Shown here: in pieces, positions 7,321 through 22,293 of the stretch | How the letters are laid out: each line of letters opens with the position of its first letter | Position numbering within the stretch: the first letter of the stretch is position 1 | Source: an uncultured Ectothiorhodospiraceae bacterium | GTDB lineage: Bacteria; Pseudomonadota; Gammaproteobacteria; Nevskiales; Oceanococcaceae | Direction: 5' to 3' | Assembly: GCA_937141935.1 (NCBI GenBank) | Contig: CAKZQS010000035.1 | Span: forward strand, 1-39,435 | DNA length: 39,435 nucleotides | The notes under the pieces: model-generated | Seen by the model: only the letters and a program-made list of their open reading frames with translations | The model's database searches: none | Told to the model about the DNA's origin: nothing | Made by a program: the position numbers and the translations under genes

Positions 7321-7401
7321 GCACCGCGCTCAAACGCGGTTCGCAGCGCTGTGTGCGCCTGCCTTGTGGGGTTTCCCGATGTACGGGCCGGGGAGAATCA
7401 G

Positions 7402-7517
7402 CCACAGATTTCGCAGATTTATGGGATTGGCTTGGCCGGCAGCTCGGAGGTTGGCGGGCTGCGTAAACGCCCCAACGCTAAATTCAATCTGCGTCAATCT
7501 GCGTAATCTGCGGATTC
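7402..7517 (+). repeat. Palindromic intergenic repeat, copy 1
   Basis: The left arm reads CCACAGATTTCGCAGATTT (7402-7420) and the right arm, ending near 7517, is a run of AATCTGCG repeats in the opposite sense. Between the arms, GGTTGG and CCCAAC can pair. The stretch 7321-7749 between dacB and the acyl-CoA reductase holds no gene and is made largely of two diverged tandem units of about 190 bp. Similarity extends beyond the arms: GGCCGGGGAGAATCAG precedes the left arm and a C-rich segment follows the right arm. Confidence 0.85.
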
Positions 7518-7595
7518 TCGTCACCCCGCCCGGCCCGAAGCGGCATCGCGCACACCTGTGCCGGCTTCCCGGCGTTCTGACCAGGAAAAAACCAT

Positions 7596-7706
7596 CCACA
7601 GATTTCGCAGATTTTGGGGATTGGGTTGGCCGGCCGAGCCGACGTTGGTGCGCGGAGTGCACGTCCCAACCCGAAATTCAATCTGCGTAATCTGCGAAAT
7701 CTGCGG
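7596..7706 (+). repeat. Palindromic intergenic repeat, copy 2
   Basis: This is the second copy of the same element in the same orientation. The left arm (7596-7614) is identical to copy 1 over CCACAGATTTCGCAGATTT, followed by the near-identical GGGATTGGGTTGGCCGGC. The centre differs in sequence but keeps the TTGG/CCCAAC pairing, and the right arm (AATCTGCGTAATCTGCG, then AAATCTGCGG) ends near 7706. Conservation of pairing over a diverged centre suggests that structure matters. Confidence 0.85.
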
Positions 7707-7749
7707 TTCCTCTTCCCCCGCTCTACCCGCAACGAAACCGCCGCCCCGC

Positions 7750-22159: not shown

Positions 22160-22293
22160 CCGCAGATTTCACAGATTGCGCAGATTGAAGAGAAAGCCAG
22201 GATGACGCTGGCGGATGCGTCCGGCAGCCACCGTGGGCGCCCCCTTGGCCCGATACGTCTGTACTGAATCGGTGAAATCTGCGAAATCTGTGG
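22160..22293 (-). repeat. Palindromic intergenic repeat, copy 3 (opposite orientation)
   Basis: The gap between hpd and hmgA (22041-22402) holds no gene but carries this element. Its arms are CCGCAGATTTCACAGATT plus a third GCGCAGATT (22160-22186), and at 22267-22293 the reverse complement of CCACAGATTTCGCAGATTT and a further unit. Read on the minus strand, it is preceded by GGCCGGGAGAAAAGCAGAA, close to the flank of copy 1, and followed by GGTTGCTTTCC, close to the flank of copy 2. The centre is unrelated in sequence to the other copies. Confidence 0.85.

Follow-up and report, generated by a model that had tools for sequence, protein, structure and literature searches.

The closest described systems pair a short repeat with one enzyme. 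According to the passages that describe them, RAYTs are HuH enzymes whose gene stands between two inverted palindromic repeats, with repeats and enzyme co-evolving; the abundance of the cognate REP repeat goes with the presence of the RAYT gene, and REP doublets (REPINs) form hairpins with a spacer. The heptamer GGGAATC has been described in Xanthomonas, in a paper whose main text does not use the words "four helix". The GxxExxY domain, which features throughout what follows, appears in print in a passage that mentions it beside a reverse transcriptase. A search by family names, repeat strings and concepts found no link between GxxExxY and a repeat in the literature covered, which takes in a minority of subscription papers and no bioRxiv preprints.

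The window analysed here is the whole stretch of 39,435 nucleotides, and it contains three copies of a palindromic element. They lie where a first-pass annotation, made from the letters alone, had placed them, at 7402-7513 (copy 1, a gene-less palindromic unit element), 7596-7706 (copy 2) and 22160-22293 (copy 3), none being assigned to a strand as a whole. The repeat counts are far above those of shuffled sequence: there are 11 occurrences of CGCAGATT in the window compared to 1.67 (SD 1.29) in shuffles, none of 100 shuffles having 11 or more, and AGATTTCGCAGATT, allowing up to two mismatches, occurs 10 times compared to 0.09, a number reached in 0/100 shuffles. In every copy a variable centre is enclosed by two arrays that face inward, each of two to three 9-bp units (CRCAGATTN). 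In copy 1 the left arm (7403-7419, plus strand) has two intact units and a decayed third, and the right arm (7486-7512, minus strand) has three units. Copy 2 has the same build, with a left arm at 7597-7613 (plus strand; two intact units, the third decayed) and a right arm of three units at 7680-7705 (minus strand). Copy 3 has three units in its left arm (22161-22186, plus strand) and three in its right arm (22267-22292, minus strand), one of them with a mismatch. The centres had been said to differ; those of copies 1 and 2 are in fact alike (74% over 53 bp), and it is the centre of copy 3 that has no similarity to either. Copies 1 and 2 were also compared in their outer flanks, by eye. Copy 3 had also been described as inverted with respect to the other two. 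Its position is correct, but its orientation carries little meaning, because the element is itself an inverted repeat.

Copies 1 and 2 have a PBP4-like carboxypeptidase gene on one side and a convergent SDR gene on the other. For copy 3 the neighbours had been named as hpd and hmgA; the hpd assignment is sound (TIGR01263, 407 bits, cut-off 277), whereas the other gene is only hmgA-like, matching TIGR01015 far below its cut-off (65 bits against 511). At the sites orthologous to copies 1 and 2 in five relatives there is no exact unit in the 600 bp read; since a single flank aligns, these are not clean empty sites.

The first-pass annotation had named two outcomes that would count against it, the first being a lack of further copies in the genome; the host genome (3.57 Mb in 52 contigs) has many. 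Matches to the two-unit pattern with up to two mismatches number 31 forward and 27 reverse, and a reversed control pattern gives 0 matches. From these, 16 inward-facing pairs were tabulated, 65 to 433 bp in length and with spacers of 7 to 375 bp, together with a lone, unpaired array at L063:3512. Most host copies have three tandem 9-bp units per arm. Complete copies outside the window have a left arm of CCACAGATT-TCGCAGATT-TCGCAGATT, a right arm that is its near reverse complement, and a variable centre. The arm ends of the host elements are AACCACAG..CTGTGGTT or near variants. As many as 15 of the 16 pairs are gene-less. The interiors of these are dissimilar, except in neighbouring pairs, and the gene-less copies are therefore not recent copies of one miniature element. 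In three places (L062:3472-4013, L062:6635-7407 and L066:2826-3026) pairs of 9-bp and 10-bp period are interleaved in the order left, left, right, right, which is beyond what simple nesting explains. The two L062 blocks lie either side of a peroxidase-domain gene (PF00141); over 366 bp, the interior of one is 89% like that of the other.

The repeat is found far outside this host. A scan for the exact 29-base arm in the species genomes of GTDB gave at least 119 stretches, 80 of them listed; among the matches listed are Prevotella, Planctomycetota, Desulfosporosinus, Brocadiaceae, Chloroflexi and NC10/Methylomirabilota, and further Acidobacteria, Treponema, Asticcacaulis, Solimonas, Nitrospinota and others. 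Where arrays in these at least 119 loci are no more than 600 bp apart, 76 pairs face inward and 7 outward, with a median interior of 42.5 bp. A blastn search of one element against plasmids gave short weak matches only, in 6 records. Two unusual arrangements may be mentioned. In Candidatus Anammoxibacter (L161, L076, L078) there are long runs of unit arrays in the same direction, not the usual inward pairs. Locus L331 (460-1416 and 16325-17272) has two blocks in opposite order, each a tandem array of three elements that recur about every 375 bp, and single elements there have one arm of 9-bp period and the other of 10-bp period.

Some of these elements contain a gene of the GxxExxY family. The one GxxExxY gene (TIGR04256) of the host lies inside an inward-facing pair, the C52 element at locus L065. 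GxxExxY corresponds to TIGR04256 and PF13366 (PDDEXK_3), a PD-(D/E)XK nuclease family. When 15 of the longer interiors were translated, a whole GxxExxY ORF was found in two, namely L065 (TIGR04256 129 bits, PF13366 122 bits) and L085 (145 and 139 bits; the cut-offs are 35 and 22), with a frameshifted ORF in L074 and a remnant in L139. A profile search of the at least 119 arm loci gave GxxExxY matches or fragments at nine, seven of which are between arms or beside one, L124 and L140 having theirs elsewhere. In the other phyla, matches over the TIGR04256 cut-off were present in 30 of 33 genomes picked for the AGAT triple unit; these 30 include two Desulfosporosinus genomes (G089, G109) in which the listed matches are all partial, and the three with none over the cut-off are G093, G107 and G116.

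Among 59 GxxExxY proteins the catalytic residues D, E and K are retained in 58, 59 and 57 respectively, and the E and Y of the motif in all 59. Both proteins with K changed to R come from L240 and L241, the loci which have lost their left arm; the one with D changed to N is from L245, where the arms are retained. A dS value was obtained for 17 of 34 pairs, and in these dN/dS ranged from 0.04 to 0.32, to be read with the fact that dS exceeds 1 in 14 of them, the other three giving 0.19, 0.11 and 0.10. GxxExxY relatives were found in 8 of 72,556 plasmid records and on 3 viral contigs, and in 0 of 50,697 phage records; two other viral scans gave no GxxExxY. Against the PDB there was no phmmer match, and the profile matches were non-significant. 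AlphaFold2, run from a 3-row alignment, gave a mean pLDDT of 42 and no usable structure model.

Inverted arrays flank most of the GxxExxY genes that were tested. In the host's order the gene is present in 28 of 85 genomes, at 38 places over the cut-off, of which 32 could be tested (one is at a contig edge, and for five no locus was fetched). The order is probably Nevskiales, since the gene has identical coordinates in G012 and in G108, the genome of Solimonas marina locus L127. The test compared the inverted repeat across the gene, in 200-bp flanks, with 1000 single-base shuffles per locus, a pass being a score better than every shuffle. Passes were obtained at 29 of the 32 testable loci of the order and at 24 of 30 loci from other phyla, compared to 0 of 300 control segments. 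The other-phyla set takes the one best locus per genome, and is not a random sample because its genomes were selected as carriers of the AGAT triple unit. Among copies detected by protein alone, 3 of 3 on viral contigs and 3 of 8 on plasmids passed, the other 5 plasmid copies having no significant inverted repeat. An earlier form of the test gave 26 of 29 scores above 13.5, a value exceeded by 2 of 1200 control segments. The misses in the order are L240 and L241, where the left arm is gone, and L255, which is near a contig end; those in other phyla are L271 (equalled by 1 of 1000 shuffles), L290, L294, L295 and the decayed copies L298 and L299. The arms are mostly short tandem units whose letters vary (CRCAGAT, CGCAAAT, CGCAAAG, CACAGAG, CACGAAA, CGCGGAT, CAGGAT and others). 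The CRCRRA core appears at least twice in the arms at 28 of the 29 passing order loci and at 20 of the 24 passing loci from other phyla.

The variation in the arms follows that in the protein. A tree was made of 59 GxxExxY proteins, 51 of them with an arm label (some labels being weak); row L285 was left out of the tree and the counts, as it is the same gene as L235. Mapping the fine arm labels on the tree needs 18 changes, compared to 32.4 (SD 1.5) for shuffled labels, and the simple division into cores that end in AG or do not needs 2, compared to 16.5 (SD 1.8); in neither case was any of 1000 shuffles as low. In the 25 labelled rows from other phyla alone there are 2 changes for the AG division against 8.4 (SD 1.3; 0/1000 shuffles as low) and 14 for the fine labels against 17.3 (6/1000 as low). 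One clade of 17 rows (support 100/94) brings together rows from the host's order, Methylomirabilota and Anaerolineales, and its 13 labelled rows comprise 12 AGAT and one AGAA; AGAT arms are also found outside it, in L276, L277 and L278. The residues that discriminate the protein and arm classes are at alignment positions 21, 91, 94 and 95.

The same correspondence is seen in whole genomes. AGAT triple units (up to one mismatch) and AAAG double units (exact) were counted across the 85 genomes of the order, the arms of the gene itself being included in the counts. AGAT repeats are present in 11 of 13 genomes with an AGAT-class gene and in 6 of 72 without (p = 3.9e-8), and AAAG repeats in 12 of 12 genomes with an AAAG-class gene and in 11 of 73 without (p = 1.0e-8), p values which overstate independence because the genomes are related. 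No cross-association of gene class with the other repeat type was seen over the 85 genomes (1/13 and 2/12): AAAG matches are found in 0 of 12 AGAT-only genomes, and a single AGAT match in one of 11 AAAG-only genomes. Both gene classes and both repeats occur together in G005, where the second gene is off the tree and was classed by its arms. For any GxxExxY gene against AGAT repeats the figures are 12/17 and 16/68 (p = 4.5e-4). GxxExxY is missing from 5 of the 17 genomes that carry AGAT repeats and from 10 of the 23 that carry AAAG repeats. We note that the matching of arm and protein classes could stem from the joint descent of gene and arms alone; putative specific recognition of the arms by the nuclease is a stronger claim.

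The first-pass annotation had also suggested that the element is mobile, which is supported by the many copies in the host, by the cognate nuclease gene in the gene-bearing copies, and by orthologous sites in a related genus, g7, that have the element in some genomes and lack it in others. At one site in this genus the ORFs flanking the gene are, judged by eye, presumably the halves of metH. The gene is present there in eight of 14 genomes. G014 has a stretch resembling a decayed copy, with no profile match and an intact right arm; G019 has a remnant of the right arm; G079, G023 and G017 have neither gene nor arm; and G084 has other genes, by eye a toxin-antitoxin-like pair. All gene copies from this site fall in a single clade, whose support is not strong (93/95), so that loss is as likely as gain. 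Throughout L250-L263, from g7, the metH-like gene is split in two ORFs; an element separates them in some cases and not in others. A second site, which we take by eye to be guaB-guaA, could be resolved in eight of the 14 genomes: gene-less elements, some of them decayed, are present in G029, G027, G011 and G083, there is none in G014, G019 and G081, and G084 has a short remnant. In Brocadiaceae the interior of L081 is shared with L140 (86% over 146 bp) and the flanks differ; L130, L140 and L152 have their flanks in common as well.

Desulfosporosinus presents a separate case. Loci L383-L399, L079, L083 and L105 belong to a larger dispersed repeat that carries a decayed GxxExxY element. Its near-identical copies have imperfect terminal repeats and, judged by eye, 6-bp duplications at five copies, the duplication being absent at L393. 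Because the copies ride on this larger repeat, with its 6-bp duplications, their spread is not the doing of the nuclease, and the idea that they are miniature, self-mobile elements was dropped, the flanks being those of the larger carrier repeat.

It is worth adding that another gene family is found in comparable surroundings. Four-helix-bundle genes (TIGR02436) occur at 23 places in 19 of the 85 genomes of the host's order (L300-L322), and 16 of the 22 tested are between inverted repeats: 15 of 22 beat their own 100 shuffles, and in the inverted-repeat retest L313 passes and L300 fails. The arms are mostly tandem units of about 7 bp, for example GGGAATC and GTGAGGC.

Our best explanation is that the window copies are probably the gene-less members of a selfish two-part system, composed of a GxxExxY nuclease and its cognate palindromic element. 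This proposal builds on what is computed directly, namely the arms around the gene, the match of arm class with protein class and of repeat with gene class, the catalytic residues, and the presence or absence of the element at given sites. The element would be a pair of inward-facing arrays, usually of three short units each (cores mostly CRCRRA with a period of 8-10 bp, here CRCAGATTN), with the nuclease gene between the arms in gene-bearing copies and a spacer alone in gene-less ones. The nuclease would bind units of its own class and cut the paired arms, whether these are in duplex form or folded into the hairpin or cruciform open to them. Repair or strand transfer would then copy the arms to new sites, alone or together with the gene and with no target-site duplication. 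We infer that the nuclease binds and cuts the units and itself drives the spread of the repeats. Several results count against the proposal: the lack of a target-site duplication at the host elements, the dissimilar interiors of the gene-less host copies, the larger carrier repeat in Desulfosporosinus, the single clade at the metH-like site, the genomes that have repeats and no GxxExxY gene, and the plasmid copies with no significant inverted repeat.

Several other explanations have to be weighed. The arms might be a mobile feature, or one kept by the host, with another enzyme moving them and GxxExxY as cargo which profits from its place in between. This would fit the excess of gene-less over gene-bearing pairs (15 of 16 in the host), the genomes which have repeats and no gene, and the four-helix-bundle genes in a similar setting with other units. 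However, arm class tracks GxxExxY class across phyla and genomes, which is not required of cargo, and we regard this account as rather unlikely. A conventional inverted-repeat transposon, of which the window copies would be miniature derivatives, is to our minds improbable. It would account for the terminal inverted repeats, the gene-less copies, and the Desulfosporosinus element within a larger repeat that has imperfect terminal repeats and, by eye, 6-bp duplications at five copies; against it, no target-site duplication was found at the 16 host elements (mean longest common flank word 3.56, compared to 4.80 at random places), no gene besides GxxExxY was noticed between the arms in the part of the interiors scanned, and the arms are arrays of units whose class tracks the nuclease.

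The first-pass annotation had offered an RNA-level structured element as the other possibility, and this is not supported. Were the elements structured RNA parts kept for the host (terminators, attenuators or processing sites), one could point to the hairpin folds, since five elements fold better than their shuffles (z -3.0 to -9.3), with z of -3.0, -4.5 and -4.0 for the three window copies; such scores are not evidence for RNA, because inverted arms yield these folds by themselves. One could also point to the direction of the genes: by a crude longest-ORF rule, 29 of the 50 GxxExxY loci that have two neighbours are co-directional with both, 5 are opposite to both and 16 are mixed (29 against 5, p = 3.9e-5). 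On plasmids, all six annotated copies are co-directional with both neighbours, one of them between fabD and fabG. On the other side, the arms show no covariation in a permutation test (other than R-scape) on the small set of 16 elements: complementarity between the arms of the same element is 22.25 of 27, compared to 21.74 across elements (p = 0.13), which is no greater than common sequence gives. This lack of covariation is the second outcome that the first-pass annotation had set against itself. As the arms are no more complementary within than between elements, it is the sequence that is kept and not the pairing, which speaks for the unit sequence being recognised more than for a conserved RNA fold. 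In addition, scanning the window against Rfam at gathering scores gave 0 matches, the element is missing at orthologous sites of relatives, and the spacers vary from 7 to 375 bp, so that we consider a structured RNA very improbable. Finally, the nuclease might act in defence or as an addiction factor, with the arms as operator or self-marking sites for it. Its membership of the PD-(D/E)XK family and the rarity of such proteins in phage records (0/50,697) would agree with this. Dozens of dispersed gene-less pairs, decayed copies and losses are left unexplained by such a role, and we give it hardly any credence.

Returning to the two-part system of nuclease and cognate element, a broader proposal can be framed, on which our own judgement is evenly balanced: that GxxExxY elements are an undescribed, pan-bacterial kind of selfish DNA, in which one PD-(D/E)XK domain of about 125 residues would read short tandem units (mostly CRCRRA, 8-10 bp) and spread the paired arms with no target-site duplication. 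The CACAGATT, CGCAAAGG, CACAGAG, CACGAAA and CAGGAT repeat families would be its footprints, and the four-helix-bundle genes with their units of about 7 bp would form a second, parallel system. A widespread protein family named by its motif alone would thereby gain a partner and a testable activity, as would intergenic repeats of many phyla, and the matched classes of protein and arm make the recognition code directly testable.

Comparison with known systems helps to place the element. It resembles the miniature derivatives (MITEs) of DDE transposons in being short and gene-less with terminal inverted repeats (the 16 inward pairs) and in having gene-bearing relatives; in contrast to these, the host elements have no target-site duplication and their interiors are mostly unrelated. 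The intervening sequences of 23S rRNA (S23p, a four-helix-bundle ORF) are likewise small selfish elements with one small ORF, but the passages on them place them in rRNA, from which they are excised by RNase III, and the protein families differ. The GGGAATC heptamers of Xanthomonas and Nostoc are, in the passages concerned, likewise intergenic units in tandem, and convergent pairs of them are numerous (70 and 75 in two genomes); their units are other ones, and in our data they accompany four-helix-bundle genes. A nuclease that cleaves branched DNA, such as T7 endonuclease I, would suit a palindrome. GxxExxY resembles this junction-resolving PD-(D/E)XK enzyme in a non-significant profile match that covers the D..ExK motif (E = 2.2), with an unrelated ABC protein scoring better (E = 1). 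The closest parallel is with REP/RAYT, since here too the gene is flanked by inverted repeats of the family (29/32 and 24/30), the arm class tracks the protein, and repeat presence tracks gene presence (p = 3.9e-8 and 1.0e-8). The differences are that the gene inside encodes a PF13366 PD-(D/E)XK protein and not an HuH (Y1) tyrosine transposase, that each arm consists of tandem 8-10-bp units where a REP is one palindrome of 20-40 bp, and that the host arm ends do not have the GTAG/CGTC tag which the passages on REPs give for most of them. If the proposal is true, a PD-(D/E)XK nuclease alone would run a repeat-spreading system parallel to REP/RAYT, with an unrelated enzyme.
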